DNA from: Marinobacter caseinilyticus
GTDB taxonomy: Bacteria; Pseudomonadota; Gammaproteobacteria; Pseudomonadales; Oleiphilaceae
Assembly (NCBI RefSeq): GCF_011074955.1
Contig: NZ_WUQJ01000020.1
Coordinates: 251,103 to 315,102, forward strand
DNA: 64,000 bases
Direction of reading: 5' to 3'
Position 1 is the stretch's first letter. Every line of letters starts with the position of its first letter. This document shows, in pieces, positions 51,670 through 61,574 of the stretch. The position numbers were made by a program, and so were the translations under genes. The notes under the pieces are model-generated. The model did not search any database. It worked only from the letters and a program-made list of their open reading frames with translations, and was not told where the DNA came from.

Positions 51670-52998
51670 TTAAAATCGGACCGTAACACCCGCGGTAACA
51701 CTGTGACGCCCGTATTGGTAACGCTCAATATTACTGTCGTTGTCGGCTTGATTCGCCTCAATGAGCATGGCGACTGTTTTGCTGACGGCATAGGACGCCC
51801 CCAGCGAAAGGTCGTAACGGGTGTCCTCCCGTCTGATGATAAGCACGCCATCCGGGACCTGGAGGCGGTGAGGCGTTCGATAATAGCTGTATCGAACCTC
51901 GGCTGCCGATGTCAGTGTTAATTGGGGTGTGACGGCAAATTCGAGTTTGGCCTTCACCCCCTGCCGTAAGGGCGAGACACTGAAATACTCGCGCCCAGTA
52001 TCGAGGTTTTTCCGGTCATCGTACACAACGCGATAGCGCAGCGAGCCCGTCCAACCCGAGGCGGACGCTTGGTAACGCGCATCGACTTGGTACTGTTGAC
52101 CACGGTATGCCTCCCATTCGGGTTGCGGATAAATCTGTTTAACTTCACCCTCAACACGGCAGCGCTCAGAGTTTGCTAACCCCAGGCAGTCCTGGCGCTT
52201 GAGTCCGAAAACCAACCGCGCACGGCCCTCACGCGTTTTGCCCCCAAGCCAAATGTAGTCACCACCAAGGCCGGCATGAATCCGCCCGAAACCGGTTTGC
52301 TGAACCCAGCCAGTCTCCGCCTGGATTATTTGTGTATCAAAATCACTGTCTGCGGGGTAGTGACGGGCATACAGTTTTACGTCCTGGCGAAAGCCTGCCT
52401 TGCGGCTACCGTAGATCAGGCCGGAGACAGCGCCGACACTTTCCAGGAACCCACCCTCAATAGCCGTGGCGGCGCTGTCCGGGAACAGTGCAATATTATC
52501 TTCATAGCCTGCATTGACCGAAGCCAGACCGATCCAGCGTTGTGGCGGGCGCGGCTCGGCTAATTTAACATCAAGACGCTTCAGCTGAGTCCTAGCCAGA
52601 GTTTCGAGTTTCGGCTCTGGATTGGCCATGAGCACACGCTGAAAGGCACGATCCGCTCTCGGCAGGTCTTGTTGCGCCAGTGCTACCAGACCAATATTGT
52701 AGAAGGCCAGCGCTTCCTGCCTGGAACCCATCAACCGTTGGAAAGTGGCAGCGGCCTTGTCGTACTGTTTGAGTTGGAAATAGACGACGCCAAGGTTGTA
52801 GGTAAGTGCTTTCGAATCCAGACCCAGTCCGTCTGCAGCCTCAAGATAGTCACGCGCCTGTTGAAGATCACCCCGATTGAACGCCTCAATGCCGGCCTTG
52901 AAGAAATTCTGCCCATTGGCAGGCGCACTGTGAGCATCCGCACCAGGCACTAACCAAAAGGTGATCACTACGAGGGTTACATGCAAAAACCTGGGCAA
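51670..52998 (-). CDS. TPR plus C-terminal beta-barrel outer-membrane protein
   Basis: The 442-residue protein has a signal peptide (FLHVTLVVITFWLVPGADA), tetratricopeptide repeats at about 33-130 (FFKAGIEAFNRGDLQQARDYLEAAD; LTYNLGVVYFQLKQYDKAAATFQRL), then a region of alternating aromatic beta strands from about 165 ending in VTAGVTVRF, the terminal Phe typical of outer-membrane barrels. The layout resembles DUF560/Slam-like proteins, but I do not claim that family. The start is TTG with AGGAG 7 nt upstream. It follows the acidic exported protein on the minus strand, after 182 bp. Confidence 0.75.
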   Translation of the reverse strand: MPRFLHVTLVVITFWLVPGADAHSAPANGQNFFKAGIEAFNRGDLQQARDYLEAADGLGLDSKALTYNLGVVYFQLKQYDKAAATFQRLMGSRQEALAFYNIGLVALAQQDLPRADRAFQRVLMANPEPKLETLARTQLKRLDVKLAEPRPPQRWIGLASVNAGYEDNIALFPDSAATAIEGGFLESVGAVSGLIYGSRKAGFRQDVKLYARHYPADSDFDTQIIQAETGWVQQTGFGRIHAGLGGDYIWLGGKTREGRARLVFGLKRQDCLGLANSERCRVEGEVKQIYPQPEWEAYRGQQYQVDARYQASASGWTGSLRYRVVYDDRKNLDTGREYFSVSPLRQGVKAKLEFAVTPQLTLTSAAEVRYSYYRTPHRLQVPDGVLIIRREDTRYDLSLGASYAVSKTVAMLIEANQADNDSNIERYQYGRHSVTAGVTVRF

Positions 52999-53180
52999 AA
53001 GCTGGCTCCTGAAACAGGCAAGCCCCGCGGCGGCAACAGCGCCTGAGGAGATATTCCTCTCTCATCGGAGACACCGGTCAGGGACGGCTATTATTAGAAC
53101 CGCTGAGTATAGCAGTGTAATGGCGTGGAAAAATCAACTGAATGGATGAGTGGTTGGCGCGCCCTTGACCGGATAACCCC

Positions 53181-53642
53181 TCATTGAAGTTCAGTGGCCT
53201 TCGGTTTGAGCGACTCGGACTCGAGAATCTGCAAATCAATCTCGCCCGTACCCGGCAACGCCAGATCCGGACTCTCCAAGCTAGGAACATCCAAGCCCGG
53301 CTGGCTGATTTCAAGTTCGTCGGACAGTTCACCCGGCAACTCTACATTAAGAGCATCCCGCGACTCTCGCGCCTGTTCAGCAACGGACTCTTCGAGACTC
53401 CGGGCATCATCAATGATATCTCCGGCATTCAATTCGTCAACGCTCACAGACTCCGGTGATTCGTCCAAAGACGACGGCAATTCAAGTTGCTGGACGAAGG
53501 TCTCGTTCAGAGCCTCGTCGTCCGCCACCATCCTCATGGTGACACCAAGATCTTCCTCGGCCGCCGCGGTGCCGCAAGTTGAAAGCAACACAATAACGGT
53601 GACCGATAACGCGACGCTTTTGGTAGCACTGGCTTTGATCAT
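53181..53642 (-). CDS. Acidic exported protein coupled to anti-sigma gene
   Basis: The 153-residue protein has a signal peptide (SVALSVTVIVLLSTCGTAAA-EE), after which it is dominated by Glu, Asp, Ser and Leu with no Cys and no membrane span. It looks partly disordered. No family is recognised. Its ATG overlaps the anti-sigma stop (ATGA), so it is translated with it and is probably a third component of the sigma system, possibly a periplasmic partner of the anti-sigma sensor domain. That role is inference. Confidence 0.75.
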   Translation of the reverse strand: MIKASATKSVALSVTVIVLLSTCGTAAAEEDLGVTMRMVADDEALNETFVQQLELPSSLDESPESVSVDELNAGDIIDDARSLEESVAEQARESRDALNVELPGELSDELEISQPGLDVPSLESPDLALPGTGEIDLQILESESLKPKATELQ

Positions 53643-54313
53643 GATGAAGGCTCCTTGTTCCTGCTGATGGCCGTGCGGAACGTCTTTCGCTTGGACCCAT
53701 CGTCCAGGTGGGCTACCAGCGTTCCAGATCCTGGAAATAAAACATTGAGCGGCAGGGCCAGCACGTTATCGCCCTGCTTTAGATTCACTTTCCAGCTCAC
53801 ATTGCGGCGCCCCGGAAATGGGGCCAGTTCAACATTCGCGGGTAACTCCAGCGTTAACGTGACGCCGTCCATTGCCTGCCGGGAGTTGAACGCCAGTTTA
53901 ACCGTCTGGAGCCCAGACTCCACGTGGGCATCGTCGGTTCCGGGCTGTGCGCTCGTGGCGGCGATTTCCGGAACGGTTTCCAGATTGCTATTCGGGCCGA
54001 GGTGCAGGCCAATATAAACACCCAAGGCCAAAATCGCGGCGACCGCCGCTCCCATAGCAGGAAACGCCCAGGCTCGGCGACCGACTGCCCCCTGGCTCAT
54101 GGTTGCTGCCTGCAAAACCCGGAACTCAAAATCGGGACTCGGCTCAGGAATGGCCTGGGCACCAAACAGATCCCGCAGTTGACGTTGTTCTTGCCATAGC
54201 AACGCACACTCGCGGCATTCGGCCGCGTGCGCTTTCAGTTTATTTTCCAAACCAGACGAAGCGTCGTCCTGGTTCAGAATCTCAATGTCTTCACGAAACT
54301 GATGACAGTTCAT
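53639..54313 (-). CDS. Zinc-finger anti-sigma factor, membrane-anchored
   Basis: The 224-residue protein starts with a ZAS-type zinc-finger domain: His29, Cys33 and Cys36 form HxxxCxxC (HAAECREC). A single span (about 83-106) and a periplasmic domain of about 115 residues follow. Such proteins hold an ECF sigma factor until an envelope signal releases it. It starts 33 bp after the sigma gene and is coupled by ATGA to the acidic exported protein. The periplasmic domain (NSRQAMDGVTLTLELPANVE onward) looks beta-rich and is not one I recognise. Confidence 0.85.
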   Translation of the reverse strand: MNCHQFREDIEILNQDDASSGLENKLKAHAAECRECALLWQEQRQLRDLFGAQAIPEPSPDFEFRVLQAATMSQGAVGRRAWAFPAMGAAVAAILALGVYIGLHLGPNSNLETVPEIAATSAQPGTDDAHVESGLQTVKLAFNSRQAMDGVTLTLELPANVELAPFPGRRNVSWKVNLKQGDNVLALPLNVLFPGSGTLVAHLDDGSKRKTFRTAISRNKEPSS

Positions 54314-54346
54314 GGCACCTACCTCTTACTCTAAACGCTGTCGCAG

Positions 54347-54910
54347 TTAAAAAGGTTCCATTTCTTTTTGAAGTCGCTCGCGTAACAGAGCCCTGCTCCG
54401 ATGCAGTCTTGATTTTACCGTGCCAACCGGCACGTCGAGTACGTGGGCAATATCTTCCTGACGCCAGCCATCGGCGTCGTGCAGCAATATCAACGTGCGT
54501 TGATCGGGCGACAAATCGCCCAGAAGTCGGTTCAGTGTTTCTTTTAACTGCATCTGGTCTATGCCTGCCGAGGCGTCCGGACCGGCCTCACCCAAGGACT
54601 CCATAAACGAGGTCTCTCGATCCGCACTCACCAATGTGCCGGCATTGACTTCTCGTCGCCGCGCCTGCTTGCGGGTTAAATCCACAAAATGGCGATACAG
54701 CACTCGGTTCAGCCAGGGCCTGAGCTGCTCAACACCTTCCAGCTCGTCGAGCCGTGGGAACAGTTTTACAACGACATCCTGCACCAGATCTTCCGCATCC
54801 TGCTGCTGACCGGTAAGACGGTACGCGAATTGGTACAACAATCTCAGGTTAGGCTGGACAAGGCGCTCAAAGCGCTTGGTCCGGGATGGTCGGAAGGGCA
54901 ACAAGGTCAA
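54347..54910 (-). CDS. ECF-family RNA polymerase sigma factor
   Basis: The 187-residue sigma factor has region 2 (LLYQFAYRLTGQQQDAEDLVQDVVVKLF) and region 4 (LSPDQRTLILLHDADGWRQEDIAHVLDVPVGTVKSRLHRSRALL) joined by a Gly/Asp-rich linker. The start is TTG with GAGG 8 nt upstream. It heads an operon with its anti-sigma factor and is divergent from the lipase gene, whose promoter region has an ECF-like signature. Confidence 0.9.
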   Translation of the reverse strand: MTLLPFRPSRTKRFERLVQPNLRLLYQFAYRLTGQQQDAEDLVQDVVVKLFPRLDELEGVEQLRPWLNRVLYRHFVDLTRKQARRREVNAGTLVSADRETSFMESLGEAGPDASAGIDQMQLKETLNRLLGDLSPDQRTLILLHDADGWRQEDIAHVLDVPVGTVKSRLHRSRALLRERLQKEMEPF

Positions 54911-55099
54911 TCGAATTTCCTCGGTAAGTCGATGGCACTGCGTCGGACACGATTATCCAGTCATCTGCACAGCATGTTACCAGTGGTGGCCGCCTAAACG
55001 TAGCCTCAGCGCATTTTCAAAATTGATAACTTTCCCTATATATAAGAATTAGTTAGCGCCATTCGACCAACTTTCTTTCCTTTTTCCATAAAAAAATTT

Positions 55100-55124
55100 G
55101 GAACCAAGGCCATTAGACATACGT
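55100..55124 (+). promoter_or_regulatory. ECF-type promoter of the lipase gene
   Basis: GGAAC (55100-55104) and CGT (55122-55124) are 17 bp apart. A run of seven A and three T lies just before GGAAC, the usual upstream element of ECF promoters. It is 57 bp before the lipase ATG. The sigma-factor gene is divergent, so self-directed control of this operon is likely. I found no matching promoter for the sigma gene itself. Confidence 0.45.
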
Positions 55125-55180
55125 GTTAGCCGCAAAGACACAGGCTGTGTCGCATTACAAAAACCAGAAGAGGATACATC

Positions 55181-58153
55181 ATGTTTAAGCGCCAGATACT
55201 CTTGGTTGCCGTCACCGCAACGTCCCTCGGCTTAGCCGGCTGTCTCGACAGCAGCAGTCAGACGCAAAAAAATGCAAACCCGGACTATGTAGTGGCCGGC
55301 TCAACGATCGAGCGAGGTACGCACCCTCTATTTGCGCCACTCAAAACTCAATTTCCGATTCCCAGTGATGCACTGTTCTATTTAAACGAAATCAACGATG
55401 GCACCATGCTCAATGGCAGCGATCCGGCCAACCCCGTGACGACCGGCATCGGCTTCCTTGACGGCAACTCCGTCCTGGCGCCGATTGATGTCAAGATCAG
55501 CGCCAGCCTGAGCAGTGAGCAGGTATTGGATGCGCGTGACTTCATTGCCGTCGATGGCGTCGTGGTGCCGAATCCGGATCAGAATATTTTCCTGATTCCG
55601 CTTGAATACGCCAGCGGAGACAGTCTTCAACAATCCAGTAACGAAGTGGCCGGACTCACGCCCGCTAACCAGTATCGTCGCGCCCTGGCACTCCAGGAGA
55701 CGGGCAGCACAGCGGAAGCCGATGTCATCTTCGGTGCACTGCTGGAAGAAAAAATTCGGGTTGAAGTGCTTGATATAGATGGCGGTCAAAGCAACATGAT
55801 CCGTTTACTGCCACTGGCGCCATTGGCAGAAAAAACGCAGTACGCCCTGGCACTCACCAACGCCATTGTTGATGCCCAGGGCCAGCCGCTGGTTGGGTCA
55901 CCCACCTACCAAACCGTTGGTCATCCGGATCGAACGCTCTCCAATGCGGCCTTCCAGCCCTTTCGCGATGCGCTTGTACCGGCTCGCAGGCTGGCAACCG
56001 ATTACTTCGATTTCAAACGTCAATTTTCAGAGTCTGCCGACTTCCCCTCGGACTTTAACGACGTCACCTTTTCTACCACGATCACCACCACCGCCATCGA
56101 TGACGTGTTGCTGGCCAATGCTGCACCCATTACCTTCTTCCGGTCCAGTTTGCAGATCGAAGCCAGGCAGGCGGCCATTGGCCAGTTGATCAGCGGTTTC
56201 TACAACCTGACTCAACAACCGCTGGATGGCGGTTCGACTGTCGACGAACAGAACATCAACAGCGAGATTTTCAATGTCCTGACCGACACCGGTTTCCGCT
56301 TATATGACGCCAGTCTCGCCCAGGTCATCAGCGATGCTCAGGCGGCTGCCATGACCCTGGGGTACGACGACCTGGTCGGCGATACCGACACCGACCGCCG
56401 AATCGCCCACATTCTGCAAACGGCCACCGCGCTTGCCGTCGATACAGTGGCGGACGTTGAGCCTGCGGCCCAAGCGCTGGCCTCCTCAGCGCAAGCCATT
56501 GTCGACACACCCAAACCTCGGAGCGTCAGCGTATTCAGCCAACGTGACGGCGGCGACATCAACCCGGCGCTGGCACAGGATGTCGGTGGTACCCCGCTGA
56601 ACATCCATGTCTACGAAGGTGAAATTACTCTGCCCTATTTTCAGACAGTGCCTGCGGACAGTGATGGGGCATTGATCCAATCCGAAAGCTGGCGCCCGGC
56701 GGATTTCTCAACCGATGCAGCTCTGGCTGATGCGCCGTCAAATCGCATTACCTATCGCTTCCCATTTGCGGGCAAAACGGTCGATACCAAGGTGCCCATT
56801 GTGATCGCTGCACCGGATACCGATCAGCTGCTGATTCAGGCCCAGGCACCAATCAATGGCTTCCCGGTCATCATTTATCAGCACGCGGTCACCACAGACC
56901 GCTCCGCCATTCTGCCCATGGCCACGGCGGCCGGTTTATCGTGTGCCGACCCCAACAACACCTACGATTGTTTTGTGACCATCGGCATTGATCAACCTTT
57001 GCACGGCATTTTCGGTCAGGGTCTGGTGGGTCTGACCCCCATCAGCGACCAAAGCGGCGCATCGATGGATGCCACCGAGCGGCACTTTGGCTTCTCCGCC
57101 AACGCCGATCTCTCTGCGACCCCTGCGGCGGCATTAACGAACCCCGAATCCGGCAGTCTGTTCCTGAATTTCGCCAACTACGCCAATACCCGGGACAATA
57201 TGCGCCAGGGTACGCTCGATTTGCTGAATGTGAATGCCTCACTGCAAGCCATCGAAACCGCCATCGCCGACTGTCAGACGACGGGGAATTGTGCCCAGAA
57301 CCTGACGATTGACCCCAGCCGGGTCTACTTTCTGAGTCACTCACTCAGTGGCATGGGAGGCGCCGCATTCCCGCACGTCAACAATGAGGCGATCGCGGCA
57401 GGCAACACCCGCCTGAACACCGTCACTGCCTCCAATTTCTTCAACACCGGCGGCCAGTTCACGCGGCTGATTGAGAACTCCCCATCGGTCGCACCTCGTT
57501 TGCTACCGGGTCTCGACACCGCCTCTGACGGATTGCTGGCCCAGGGCCGCACGGAGTTGAATATTTATTTCAGTGTCTTGCAGAGCCAGCTTGACTCGGT
57601 GGATCCGGTTGCCTTTGCCGGCTTCTATGCAGGCACCAATACCTTGCTGACGGAAATCGCTGGCGTGGAGGGTGACCCCGACCGTCCTACCGACAACACG
57701 GTACCTAATTCCGCCGACCAGGAGCTTTACCCGCTTGGTCCTCTGGACACCACGTTGCCTGACACCGGGTTTGTGATTGCCGGCGAGAATGCACCCCTGG
57801 CGGGTACCGATCCCTTCGCCGCTGGAATGGGCGCCGAGTCCACCCCCTTGGGTACCGAAGGACTGCCGCTTATCACCCGTTATCTGGAAGGCTCGCACGG
57901 CAATCCGGTCTCCGCCGGTCAGAAAGACGCCGACGCTTTCTCATCACGGGCCGTCTTTGACGAGATGACCGCGCAAATGCTGACGCTGTTCACCGATGGC
58001 ACGGTGTCAGTGGTCAACCCATGCGTTGTCAAAGACGCAGACACCAGCGGCACAGATTGCACCGCTGACGGCAACACCGATGCCGGTGCAGACCCCGCGC
58101 CCGCTAATGGCGGTGACGGCGGCACGGGTGGCGACCTCCCGCTGGCACTGTAA
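55181..58153 (+). CDS. VolA/Pla-1-type lipoprotein lipase
   Basis: The 990-residue protein has a lipoprotein signal with LAGC (Cys21 as the lipid site; Leu at +2 favours the outer membrane) and belongs by sequence feel to the Pla-1/cef extracellular lipase family, which includes Vibrio VolA, a surface lysophospholipase. The nucleophile elbow is SHSLSGMGG around Ser721, where GxSxG is normal, so both Gly positions are Ser. A long N-terminal half (residues 50-480) is beta/alpha of unknown role. The C-terminus is Gly/Ala-rich. It is probably exposed on the cell surface and heads the operon with DUF1302 and DUF1329. VolA itself is shorter (about 800 residues). Confidence 0.75.
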   Translation: MFKRQILLVAVTATSLGLAGCLDSSSQTQKNANPDYVVAGSTIERGTHPLFAPLKTQFPIPSDALFYLNEINDGTMLNGSDPANPVTTGIGFLDGNSVLAPIDVKISASLSSEQVLDARDFIAVDGVVVPNPDQNIFLIPLEYASGDSLQQSSNEVAGLTPANQYRRALALQETGSTAEADVIFGALLEEKIRVEVLDIDGGQSNMIRLLPLAPLAEKTQYALALTNAIVDAQGQPLVGSPTYQTVGHPDRTLSNAAFQPFRDALVPARRLATDYFDFKRQFSESADFPSDFNDVTFSTTITTTAIDDVLLANAAPITFFRSSLQIEARQAAIGQLISGFYNLTQQPLDGGSTVDEQNINSEIFNVLTDTGFRLYDASLAQVISDAQAAAMTLGYDDLVGDTDTDRRIAHILQTATALAVDTVADVEPAAQALASSAQAIVDTPKPRSVSVFSQRDGGDINPALAQDVGGTPLNIHVYEGEITLPYFQTVPADSDGALIQSESWRPADFSTDAALADAPSNRITYRFPFAGKTVDTKVPIVIAAPDTDQLLIQAQAPINGFPVIIYQHAVTTDRSAILPMATAAGLSCADPNNTYDCFVTIGIDQPLHGIFGQGLVGLTPISDQSGASMDATERHFGFSANADLSATPAAALTNPESGSLFLNFANYANTRDNMRQGTLDLLNVNASLQAIETAIADCQTTGNCAQNLTIDPSRVYFLSHSLSGMGGAAFPHVNNEAIAAGNTRLNTVTASNFFNTGGQFTRLIENSPSVAPRLLPGLDTASDGLLAQGRTELNIYFSVLQSQLDSVDPVAFAGFYAGTNTLLTEIAGVEGDPDRPTDNTVPNSADQELYPLGPLDTTLPDTGFVIAGENAPLAGTDPFAAGMGAESTPLGTEGLPLITRYLEGSHGNPVSAGQKDADAFSSRAVFDEMTAQMLTLFTDGTVSVVNPCVVKDADTSGTDCTADGNTDAGADPAPANGGDGGTGGDLPLAL

Positions 58154-58163
58154 CCGGATTAAA

Positions 58164-58190
58164 GCGCGCGTTCGTCTTGCGAGCGCGCGC
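58164..58190 (+). terminator. Strong GC hairpin after lipase gene
   Basis: GCGCGCGTTCG (58164-58174) and CGAGCGCGCGC (58180-58190) pair over 11 bp with one G-U, closed by a 5-nt loop. It lies 10 bp after the stop without a T-run. It may reduce read-through into DUF1302 or stabilise the lipase mRNA. Confidence 0.5.
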
Positions 58191-58280
58191 CCCTGATACC
58201 CAAGCGCATACCCCTGAATAGTGACGGATGCATTCCATCCAATGGGGAAGTCATGTCCAAATAATGTGGAGTCATTTCCA

Positions 58281-60179
58281 ATGTTAATAACAAACAAACT
58301 TAAAATGAGGCCGCGTCACTTCGCCATGGCCATCGGTTCAGCGTGCCTGTGCACACCGGTTGCGGCCTTCGACTTCGACATTTATGAAATTGATGCGTCG
58401 TTCTCCACTACCCTGACCGCCGGTATTGGCTACCGTCTGGAAGATCAGGATCCGGACCTGATCTCACAGGGCAACCTGGGTCCGGAATTTGCCTTCAGCA
58501 ACACGGGGGCGTCGTCCAACAATTTTGACGACGGTAACCTCAACTTCGAGAAGAACGAACCCTACTCGCAAATCCTGCGGGGCCGCAGCGAACTGTTTCT
58601 GGATTATTCGCCCGACAGTGACACACTGACTCGCATCGGCGCATTGGTCCGCGGCACTTACTACTACGACTACGAACTTAAAAACAACGACCGCGCTGTC
58701 GATCCCGTGGGGCAACGCCGGGAACTGAATGACGAAGCCAGGGACAACGCCTCGGGCGTGGACCTGCTTGACGCCTATGTCTTCACTGACTGGATTTTTG
58801 GCGATACGCCGGTGTCGATCCGTTATGGCCGTCAAGTCGTCAACTGGGGTGAAAGCACGTTCATTCTCGGTGGCATCAACGCCATCAACCCGATCGATGT
58901 GCCTGCTTTTCGGGCCCCTGGTGCTGAGTTAAAAGACGTCCTGCTGCCGGTTGAAATGCTCTACACCTCAGTAGGGCTGACTTCGGAAGTCACACTGGAA
59001 GCCTTCGTACAGACAGACTGGAACAGTTTCAAGATTGACGACTGCGGTACTTTTTTCTCATCGGCCGATGTGGCCGCCGACGGTTGTGGTCCGGTCCTTT
59101 TAGCCGGCCAGGTGCCAGATTCCCAAGCCTTCGAGGAGGGTTTCGTGTCACCCCGGCTGGGCGACAAGGAACCAGGGGACAAGGACCAGTTCGGTGCCGC
59201 GCTGCGCTGGTATGTCACGGAACTGGACGCGGAACTCGGGTTTTACTACACCCGCTACCACAGCCGGCTCCCGTATATCAGTGGTGTGGTCAACAACCCC
59301 TCTGACCCGGAGCCCAATCAAAAAAGCGACCCGAACGAACCTAACTCCCGGTTCCCGAGTTATTTTATTGAGTACCCTGGGGATATCGATCTTTATGGTG
59401 TCAGTATCAACACCACTCTACCCACCGGAACCTCATTCGGGGCCGAGTACAGCTTCCGCCCGAACATGCCGATCCAGTGGAACACCTTTGAACTGATCTA
59501 TGGTGGCCTCCAGCAGCGCGGACCTGACGGTCAGGTTGTGAGCAAACTTGAACAGCGCCAGCGCCAGAACAACCCTGATTACAACTACGCGGGCAAAGCG
59601 ATCGAGGGCTACGATCGCTACAACGTCTCGCAGGCTCAGGCCACGTTTATTCACTTCATTGACCGGGTAATGGGGGCTGCCCGCTTCATCATTGTTGCGG
59701 AAGTGGGCGCAACCTACATCCACGATCTGCCCGGTAAGTCCGAGGCCCGTTATGGCCGCTCCGGAATATACGGAGTGGGCACGGTACCGCTGGACGGAAG
59801 CAACTTTTCCGGTGATTTCTGCAGCCAGGGCACGGACAGTGACCCGCGCCTGAACATCAATGCCAGTAACTGCACTGGTGACGGCTTCACCACATCCTTT
59901 TCCTGGGGCTATCGCACTCTGTTCGTTTGGGATTATCCGAATGCGATCGCTGGCGTCAACCTGCGCCCCAAGCTGTTTCTGAGCCATGACGTTAAAGGCT
60001 ATGCCCCGGACCCTGGTGGCAATTTTAACGAGGGGAATAAGTCGGTTGGCTTGGCGCTCGATGCGACCTACCAAAATGCCTACAAGGCATCGCTCAGTTA
60101 CACCAATTATTTTGGCGGGGATTACAACGTCATCAATGACCGCGACTTCGTCGCGGCGTCCGTTTCTTATTCATTCTGA
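58281..60179 (+). CDS. DUF1302 outer-membrane beta-barrel protein
   Basis: The 632-residue protein has a signal peptide (MAIGSACLCTPVAA-FD, from about residue 15) and the DUF1302 pattern: ASFSTTLTAGIGYRLEDQDPDL early, RYGRQVVNWGESTFILGGINAINPIDVPAFRAPGAE in the middle, and a terminal VAASVSYSF. DUF1302 proteins form outer-membrane barrels that often pair with DUF1329 proteins near lipid or hydrocarbon genes. GGAG lies 9 nt before the ATG. Two 11-nt direct copies of GTCATxTCCAA (about 58251-58281) occur just before the start. Confidence 0.85.
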   Translation: MLITNKLKMRPRHFAMAIGSACLCTPVAAFDFDIYEIDASFSTTLTAGIGYRLEDQDPDLISQGNLGPEFAFSNTGASSNNFDDGNLNFEKNEPYSQILRGRSELFLDYSPDSDTLTRIGALVRGTYYYDYELKNNDRAVDPVGQRRELNDEARDNASGVDLLDAYVFTDWIFGDTPVSIRYGRQVVNWGESTFILGGINAINPIDVPAFRAPGAELKDVLLPVEMLYTSVGLTSEVTLEAFVQTDWNSFKIDDCGTFFSSADVAADGCGPVLLAGQVPDSQAFEEGFVSPRLGDKEPGDKDQFGAALRWYVTELDAELGFYYTRYHSRLPYISGVVNNPSDPEPNQKSDPNEPNSRFPSYFIEYPGDIDLYGVSINTTLPTGTSFGAEYSFRPNMPIQWNTFELIYGGLQQRGPDGQVVSKLEQRQRQNNPDYNYAGKAIEGYDRYNVSQAQATFIHFIDRVMGAARFIIVAEVGATYIHDLPGKSEARYGRSGIYGVGTVPLDGSNFSGDFCSQGTDSDPRLNINASNCTGDGFTTSFSWGYRTLFVWDYPNAIAGVNLRPKLFLSHDVKGYAPDPGGNFNEGNKSVGLALDATYQNAYKASLSYTNYFGGDYNVINDRDFVAASVSYSF

Positions 60180-60212
60180 TTCGAGCTTAAAGCAACAAAG
60201 GAGAACCTAACC

Positions 60213-61574
60213 ATGATAAAACCACCATCGAATGTGTATTTCGCTCTCGCCTGCTCGCTGCTGTTATCCACACCTGTAACAGCAGCCGTCTCCGAGCAGG
60301 AGGCCGCCAAGTTAGGTGACACACTAACCCCCGTCGGGGCGCTTAAAGCCGGCAACGGCGATGAAATTCCAGCATGGGACGGCGGTCTGGTGCAGGCGCC
60401 TGATGCTTACCAGGGAGACGGTCGCTATATTGATCCATTCCCCGAAGATAAAGAGCTGTTTCGTATCGATCAAAGTAACGTTGACCAATACGCCGACAAG
60501 CTTACGCCCGGTCAGATCGCTACGATTAAAACGTATGACGACTATTTTATCCCTGTCTTCCAGACTCGGCGGTCCGGCACTTACCCTAAAGATGTGCAGC
60601 AAAATACCAGGAAAAATGCCACACAAGTGGAATTGGTTGAGAGTGGCAATGGTCTGACAAATTATAAGACCGCGACACCTTTTCCGATTCCGAAAAACGG
60701 TCTGGAGGTAATTTTCAATCACATTACCCGTTACCGCGGCGGTTCCTTTACTCGCCATGTAGCCCAGGTCACACCCCAACCCAATGGTGATTTTAGCCCG
60801 GTCAGATTCACCGAGTCCTTTACCGAGCGCGTCGCCCTCACGGACTTTGACCCTAGCGAGGACCCGAACGTGATGTTCTATTTCAAGCAGGCCATCACCG
60901 CACCGTCCCGCCTGGCAGGCAATGTCCTGCTGGTCCATGAAACCATCAATCAGGTCAAGGAGCCCCGTCGCGCCTGGCTTTATAACTCCGGCCAACGTCG
61001 CGTCCGCCGGGCACCAAACGTCTCCTACGATGGCCCTGGCACCGCCGCCGATGGCCAACGTACCTCGGATAATCTGGACCTCTTCAATGGCGCGCCCGAC
61101 CGCTATACATGGGAACTGAAAGGGAAGAAAGAGCTGTACATCCCCTACAACTCGTATCGACTGGCCAGCGCTGAGTTGAGCTACGACGATATCGTCAAAC
61201 CCGGGCATATTGACCAGGATCTGACGCGGTACGAATTGCACCGAGTGTGGCATGTGACCGCTACCCTGAAGGACGGCGATCGCCACGTGTACGGCAAGCG
61301 CGATTTCTACCTCGACGAAGATACCTGGCAGATTGCAGTGGTGGACCATTACGACGGCCGCGGCAACCTGTGGCGTGTCGCCGAAGCCCATGCCATGCAG
61401 ATATACGACGTCAACCTCCCCGCGTACGCCGTTGAATCCCTGTATGACCTGATGTCGGGCCGGTACTTGCTGATGGGCCTGACCAACGAAGAGGATGAGC
61501 CCTATGTGTACGGCTCGGAGAGAAACTCCCGCGAGTATACGCCGGCTGCCCTGCGCCGCGACGGCGTCCGTTAA
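60213..61574 (+). CDS. DUF1329 periplasmic LolA/LolB-like protein
   Basis: The 453-residue protein has a signal peptide (FALACSLLLSTPVTAA) and DUF1329 blocks (AAKLGDTLTPVGALKAGNGDEIPAWDGG; NHITRYRGGSF; APNVSYDGPGTAADGQRTSDNLDLFNGAPDRYTWELKGKKELYIPYN; YGKRDFYLDEDTWQIAVVDHYDGRGNLWR). The fold is LolB/LolA-like, which suggests binding of a lipid in the periplasm. AAAGGAG precedes the ATG, 33 bp after the DUF1302 gene. The pair is a standard two-gene unit. Confidence 0.88.
   Translation: MIKPPSNVYFALACSLLLSTPVTAAVSEQEAAKLGDTLTPVGALKAGNGDEIPAWDGGLVQAPDAYQGDGRYIDPFPEDKELFRIDQSNVDQYADKLTPGQIATIKTYDDYFIPVFQTRRSGTYPKDVQQNTRKNATQVELVESGNGLTNYKTATPFPIPKNGLEVIFNHITRYRGGSFTRHVAQVTPQPNGDFSPVRFTESFTERVALTDFDPSEDPNVMFYFKQAITAPSRLAGNVLLVHETINQVKEPRRAWLYNSGQRRVRRAPNVSYDGPGTAADGQRTSDNLDLFNGAPDRYTWELKGKKELYIPYNSYRLASAELSYDDIVKPGHIDQDLTRYELHRVWHVTATLKDGDRHVYGKRDFYLDEDTWQIAVVDHYDGRGNLWRVAEAHAMQIYDVNLPAYAVESLYDLMSGRYLLMGLTNEEDEPYVYGSERNSREYTPAALRRDGVR

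Follow-up and report, generated by a model that had tools for sequence, protein, structure and literature searches.

Seven genes at positions 51,670–61,574 of a 64,000-nucleotide stretch of Marinobacter caseinilyticus DNA (contig NZ_WUQJ01000020.1, positions 251,103–315,102; hereafter, the window) join, back to back, a cassette headed by an extracytoplasmic function (ECF) sigma factor on the reverse strand and a lipoprotein lipase operon on the forward strand. We propose, with a probability of roughly 0.7, that the sigma factor of this cassette, together with its zinc-type anti-sigma factor, governs transcription of both its own operon and the divergent lipoprotein gene from matching promoters of the form GGAACC-N16-CGT. 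The seven genes fall into two modules: module A comprises the genes for the sigma factor, the anti-sigma factor, a small acidic exported protein and an outer-membrane protein with tetratricopeptide repeats (TPR) and a beta-barrel, and module B consists of the lipase gene followed by genes of the DUF1302 and DUF1329 families. Comparison of related loci establishes gene content, gene order and the pairing of the promoters.

In the window, both predicted promoters read TGGAACC-N16-CGT. One (54335–54360, reverse strand) precedes the anti-sigma–acidic–barrel operon and overlaps the 3' end of the sigma gene, and the other (55099–55124, forward strand) precedes the lipase operon. AAC and CGT are the canonical −35 and −10 boxes of ECF promoters, according to a published account (PMC8103513). 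The occurrence of the motif was analyzed across 151 genomes of the family, 86 of which contained sigma matches, counted at E <= 1e-20; all listed sigma places in these genomes, except that of the window itself, gave a cassette sample of 102 loci. At 101 of the 102 loci, GGAAC[C/T]-N16-CGT was found 47–54 nt upstream of the anti-sigma gene, and at all 25 loci where lipase and cassette are linked it was found 78–99 nt upstream of the lipase gene, with the 16-base spacer common to the two operons. As controls, spacers of 11–15 and 17–21 bases were applied to the same upstream windows and gave 0–3 matches. Further, the 16-base-spacer motif was found upstream of none of the sigma (100), acidic (102), barrel (102), DUF1302 (37) or DUF1329 (37) genes. 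Because a matching promoter with the exact spacer precedes both the anti-sigma gene and the linked lipases, the linkage looks regulatory, and the claim of the original prediction that the sigma factor turns on the lipase operon is well supported at the sequence level.

As the motif before the anti-sigma gene overlaps codons of the sigma gene, we checked for coding constraint. At the 97 loci where the motif ends in frame inside the sigma coding sequence, the arginine codon was always CGT, a codon that makes up 362 of the 2059 arginine codons in sigma gene bodies. An early stop codon of the sigma gene in the window leaves the promoter CGT outside the gene; the CGT is nevertheless retained there, as it is outside the sigma coding sequence in L120, L121 and L266. 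For the family, promoter sequence led us to reject the idea that the sigma gene is autoregulated through this motif: GGAAC-N16-18-CGT was absent from all 100 of the 150-nt stretches upstream of it. An extended −10 element (TGNTAN3T) was observed upstream of the sigma gene in 56/100 cases, but also upstream of 65/102 barrel genes and 0/102 acidic genes, and gives a weak hint of a sigma gene promoter. With regard to the lipase promoter, its spacer (55106–55121 in the window) is conserved in many linked relatives as a CAATTAGAC-like sequence, while the spacer of the anti-sigma promoter is not; a second regulator may bind there.

At all 102 fetched sigma loci, the genes for the sigma factor, anti-sigma factor, acidic protein and barrel lie on one strand in that order. 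The partner divergent to this cassette varies: 70 loci have a DUF4382 lipoprotein gene in this place, 25 have the lipase and 7 have neither of them, some of the 7 being at contig ends. One DUF4382-type lipoprotein, tested directly, matched PF14321 (E 6.7e-37). The motif was also found before the divergent DUF4382 gene, at 53/70 loci in its strict form and at 66/70 in the relaxed form GGAAC-N17-CGT, with other spacers giving 0–3. In Marinobacter sp. SS21, a penicillin-amidase-family lipoprotein gene (L161:7202–9916, reverse strand) is inserted between sigma and lipase and carries the motif about 100 nt upstream; it is a predicted third kind of lipoprotein target.

These arrangements do not sustain the single lipid-handling system of seven genes that was originally envisaged, since the modules occur apart and the cassette usually faces the DUF4382 lipoprotein. 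One fixed system of this kind was rejected, with module B occurring without module A at 12 loci and module A without the lipase at 77. The sigma pair was always accompanied by the barrel (102/102), but lacked the lipase in the fetched stretch at 77 of the 102 loci. According to the original prediction, the linkage would be chance if relatives carried the sigma pair without the lipase or the barrel genes; the former is literally the case (77/102), the latter is not, and the promoter evidence speaks against mere chance.

Loci from which the cassette is absent were also analyzed. In the window's own genome, the neighbors of the common cassette site are kept (penicillin-binding-type, DUF4382, lipase-like and hemL-like genes, labeled by eye) and the cassette is missing; no motif was found within 450 nt of the DUF4382 gene. 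We searched 32 genomes without a cassette at the common site, namely 11 with a linked cassette only and 21 (of 65 such) without a sigma match, and detected DUF4382 in 9 of the 11 and in 2 of the 21. With the window's genome included, 4 of the 12 DUF4382 genes that lack a local cassette have retained the motif, compared to 66 of 70 beside one (Fisher p 5.6e-6, relatedness ignored). L325 (G000:C31), L337 and L338 can serve as natural deletions, as DUF4382 and its customary neighbors stand there without the common cassette between them. Unlinked lipases showed a mixed profile: the motif precedes 6 of 13, or, as the 13 include the second lipase copy L101, 6 of 12 unlinked orthologues. The six with the motif (L084, L089, L090, L091, L096 and L099) all come from genomes that hold the cassette elsewhere.

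Several observations weigh against regulation of these genes by the cassette sigma factor. The motif before DUF4382 is kept in two genomes without any detected cassette (G046 and G068) and in two that have a linked cassette only (G117 and G089). Six unlinked lipases (L092–L095, L097 and L098) lack the motif and share another conserved upstream block, TTGGAAT...GCGATA (TTGGAAT...TATGCGATA); as five of their six genomes hold a cassette, the motif cannot be predicted from the presence of a cassette alone. In the window's genome, the strict pattern gave 12 matches, two of which are the promoters described here and one more of which lies 110 nt before an unrelated open reading frame (L127), and a reversed control pattern gave 5. 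Finally, the loci are related, and the counts given here are therefore not independent.

The lipase (55181–58153, forward strand) is a distant relative of VolA/Pla-1. It matched TIGR03502, the VolA/Pla-1 model, at 147.4 bits against a curated cut-off of 383.9, so that its initial designation as VolA/Pla-1-type holds as a relationship and not as membership. In an alignment of 16 sequences, C21 within the lipobox LAGC, S721 within SHSLSG and H906 are invariant or conserved; we take C21 to be the lipid anchor and S721 and H906 to be catalytic residues. A sequence search found no lipase relative with a solved structure. A paralogous lipase in the same genome (L323:5491–8328, forward strand; 227.8 bits to TIGR03502) adjoins another long lipoprotein (L323:8564–11275, reverse strand), penicillin acylase-like by eye.

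Full-length lipase matches (at least 976 bits, 55–100% identical) were found in 39 of the 151 family genomes; two further genomes contain fragments. Lipase, DUF1302 and DUF1329 genes share a strand in 37 of 38 lipase regions, the exception being L101, a second lipase copy in G069 that is 46–49% identical; the contig scrap L007 carries the lipase only. Modules A and B are divergent at 25 family loci and in the window, and this orientation is kept at every linked locus (25/25), in one genome across a large insert (L079/L161). The genes flanking the block vary between species, and for those of the window (a liv transport operon and an OCD-family gene) no counterpart was found in the regions of the relatives, save one 22% livG match in L096. 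On the trees, 2 label changes among 38 rows account for the linked lipases and 5 among 47 for the linked sigma factors; the linkage is clustered and, as far as these trees indicate, was not gained just once, or was lost repeatedly.

Of 79 named lipase loci examined, 46 are distant. Among these 46, 17 have an adjacent DUF1302 gene, 17 have DUF1329 and 0 have the cassette: the lipase operon predates its link to the cassette and is spread more widely. Matches to a profile of the barrel occurred in 17/194 genomes of the order, of which 11 fall outside the genus and belong to other families. In all 11 other-family loci, sigma and anti-sigma genes adjoin the barrel gene, mostly without a recognised lipoprotein partner, and between them lies, by eye, the gene for an exported protein whose mature N-terminus is related. 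GGAAC-N17-CGT was present near the sigma or anti-sigma gene in 8 of the 11, and before the sigma gene in 7 of these, where the sigma gene may thus be autoregulated. Judging from these distributions, the sigma cassette existed before it became tied to the lipase; within the family, it is most often partnered with the DUF4382 lipoprotein. Four loci of another family (L305–L308) carry an exported acidic repeat-rich protein after the barrel, with GGAACC-N16-CGT upstream.

The window proteins were scanned against Pfam and NCBIfam. The seven open frames, back to back on two strands as originally described, were confirmed, and their families were matched by profile scans. The sigma gene (54347–54910, reverse strand, TTG start) encodes sigma regions 2 (4.4e-14) and 4 (3e-15), with Sigma70_r2 and r4_2 above cut-off and TIGR02937 at 99.1 bits against a cut-off of 42.9. 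The records of M. similis and M. salarius (L163 and L164) show interruptions in sigma, lipase and other genes, caused by either sequencing error or decay. The anti-sigma protein (53639–54313, reverse strand) gave no Pfam match up to E 5; its HxxxCxxC motif (H29-x3-C33-x2-C36) is invariant in an alignment of 19 sequences and both relatives scanned matched zf-HC2 above cut-off (n = 2), in line with the zinc-type call made at the outset. Its structure model is poor overall (mean predicted local distance difference test score, pLDDT, of 63.7) and the fold matches are unspecific beta-sandwiches; a conserved periplasmic beta-sandwich is predicted at its C-terminus. The anti-sigma stop and the start of the small acidic gene (53181–53642, reverse strand) overlap as ATGA, confirming the coupling described originally, and the exported product has a conserved mature N-terminus around DLxVTMRMV. 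On the other strand, the DUF1302 outer-membrane protein (58221–60179; E 3.2e-167, 558.2 bits) and the LolA-like periplasmic DUF1329 protein (60213–61574; E 6e-152, 506.6 bits) both passed the gathering score; the true DUF1302 start may be an internal ATG near 58281.

The outer-membrane protein encoded at 51670–52998 (reverse strand) combines a TPR domain (residues about 27–146) with a predicted 14-stranded barrel (156–441). Profile scans detected TPR repeats, with a marginal match of the tail to BBP2_2 (23.5 bits, just short of the 23.7 cut-off), and the structure model showed the TPR domain followed by 14 long strands (mean pLDDT 87.5, predicted template modeling score 0.63). This architecture corresponds to that of the proteins of the type 11 secretion system (T11SS), or Slam proteins, in which an N-terminal TPR domain precedes a 14-stranded barrel, according to two sources (PMC8406197, PMC12282271). 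PF04575 was matched neither by the window barrel (E up to 1) nor by three relatives (E up to 5), and a search of the window's genome gave no match at E <= 0.001. The TPR_Slam model was matched by 10/20 barrel relatives and general TPR models by 20/20. In barrel-only hhalign comparisons, the score was 99.7 with four SlipAM proteins that score PF04575 weakly and 96.9 with a pair of better scorers (96.4 and 4.6 when taken one at a time), compared to control scores of 95.3 with seven BBP2_2 proteins and 0.2 with DUF1302. A high full-length hhalign score against SlipAM proteins was rejected as decisive, given that 4 of the 6 templates score PF04575 weakly and that the BBP2_2 control also matches. 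No Slam entry was among the matches listed in the fold searches, which were led by BcsC, OmpG and CymA and exclude nothing. PF04575 proteins were not found at E <= 1e-15 in 143 genomes of the class, in a search with no positive control, and were found in one of 81 genomes of the family of G165; as so few were found, a larger Slam comparison set could not be built. In its modeled architecture, the barrel resembles a Slam/T11SS protein translocon more closely than a lipid channel, and we refer to it as a putative Slam-like protein. Its constant neighbor is the small exported protein, while the lipoproteins vary. The lipid role first attributed to the sigma and barrel half is not well supported: this half is older, usually serves another lipoprotein and has a barrel more like a protein translocon.

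The question of what the barrel does bears on how the circuit is read. The sigma pair retains the exported protein and the barrel at 102/102 loci while the lipoprotein partner changes, and in other families sigma, anti-sigma and barrel genes are adjacent in 11/11 loci, mostly with no recognised lipoprotein partner; together with the periplasmic beta-sandwich predicted on the anti-sigma factor, this would suit Fec-like signaling, in which the barrel and its periplasmic TPR domain, perhaps with the exported protein, relay an outside signal to the anti-sigma factor and the lipoproteins are mere outputs that the barrel does not handle. However, the barrel gene itself lies under a predicted ECF promoter, as expected of an output, and its architecture is of the T11SS/Slam type and not that of a TonB receptor. 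We regard such signaling as possible, although short of probable.

It is very improbable that chance or gene transfer brought the lipase operon next to the cassette and that the operon is expressed on its own, given that the cassette's own promoter, with its exact spacer, stands before 25/25 linked lipase genes and that the divergent orientation is retained at all of them, one genome having the large insert. What speaks for such an origin is that lipase, DUF1302 and DUF1329 genes occur without the cassette at 12 family loci, that 17/46 distant lipase loci have DUF1302 and 0/46 the cassette, and that the genes flanking the block differ among species. Another ECF factor, e.g., RpoE, might read these promoters instead of the neighboring sigma factor, as GGAAC is frequent among ECF −35 elements and several ECF genes are present in the genome (9 first-look candidates). 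RpoE −10 boxes are usually not CGT, which counts against RpoE, and the motif tracks the cassette, being present at 101/102 of its own operons and 66/70 DUF4382 genes and largely lost at DUF4382 once the local cassette is gone. This alternative is, in our view, improbable.

Under the favored reading, in which the cassette sigma factor drives both operons, the sigma gene would be transcribed by the housekeeping polymerase, independently of the ECF promoter, and its product held by the anti-sigma factor until an envelope signal reaches the periplasmic domain of the latter and frees the sigma factor. The freed sigma factor would then transcribe the anti-sigma–acidic–barrel operon from the promoter that overlaps the end of the sigma gene, so that activation would raise anti-sigma levels and provide negative feedback. 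It would also transcribe the divergent lipoprotein gene, here the lipase–DUF1302–DUF1329 operon. The lipase would act at or near the cell surface and release fatty acids, with DUF1302 and DUF1329 aiding their uptake, and the TPR/barrel protein may help to display or secrete exports of the regulon, namely the small exported protein and perhaps the lipoproteins. A more far-reaching version, which we consider rather unlikely, is that of an exchangeable surface-lipoprotein module: the sigma factor would drive a Slam-like translocon, its exported partner and a divergent cargo (DUF4382, VolA-like lipase or penicillin-acylase-type protein), the anti-sigma factor, itself a target, would read the pace of export, and new cargo would plug in by acquiring the promoter opposite the sigma gene.

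A description of this gene set was not found in the literature available to us (partial, open-access only). Its parts belong to or resemble known kinds; what is new is the wiring and the exchangeable lipoprotein partner. The analysis turns an unnamed seven-gene neighborhood into a testable regulon with a defined promoter, describes an ECF circuit whose predicted autoregulation acts on the anti-sigma gene instead of the sigma gene, and ties Slam-like barrels, few of whose cargoes are known, to specific lipoprotein candidates. Marinobacter is a genus of lipid and oil users, and here the circuit would tie surface lipid hydrolysis to envelope signaling.

Among known systems, FecI–FecR–FecA is likewise a cluster that encodes an ECF sigma factor, a membrane anti-sigma factor and an outer-membrane barrel that has a periplasmic domain. 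The cluster described here differs from it in its zinc-type anti-sigma factor, its TPR domain and its 14-strand barrel, with no TonB receptor. Closer in regulatory components are the pairs of ECF sigma factors (group IV sigma70) and zinc anti-sigma factors, which, according to PMC8103513, share sigma regions 2 and 4 only, an adjacent zinc-type anti-sigma gene and AAC/CGT boxes; in Marinobacter and its kin, however, the promoter precedes the anti-sigma gene (101/102) and not the sigma gene (0/100). Positive autoregulation of the sigma gene is usual, although not universal, among ECF factors and is not encountered here by promoter sequence. The barrel shares with Slam/T11SS proteins (DUF560, PF04575) a periplasmic TPR N-terminus, a 14-stranded barrel, a similar size (about 440 residues compared to a median of 481) and a profile match over most of its length, but it has no PF04575 match in the scans made, and its score with the two better SlipAM proteins (96.9) is close to that with BBP2_2 (95.3). 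With VolA/Pla-1, the lipase has in common its lipoprotein nature, the conserved Ser and His of alpha/beta-hydrolase type and alignment to the same model; it differs by its score (147.4 against 383.9 bits), the SHSLSG nucleophile motif and the operon shared with DUF1302/DUF1329. Lastly, the same family pair is encoded in one operon by PP_0765/PP_0766 (DUF1302/DUF1329) of P. putida, which are needed for the use of Tween 20 and have been proposed as a transport system, as set out in PMC10866462, and by analogy uptake through DUF1302/DUF1329 is plausible; unlike in P. putida, the pair described here follows a lipase gene and is placed under a predicted ECF promoter.

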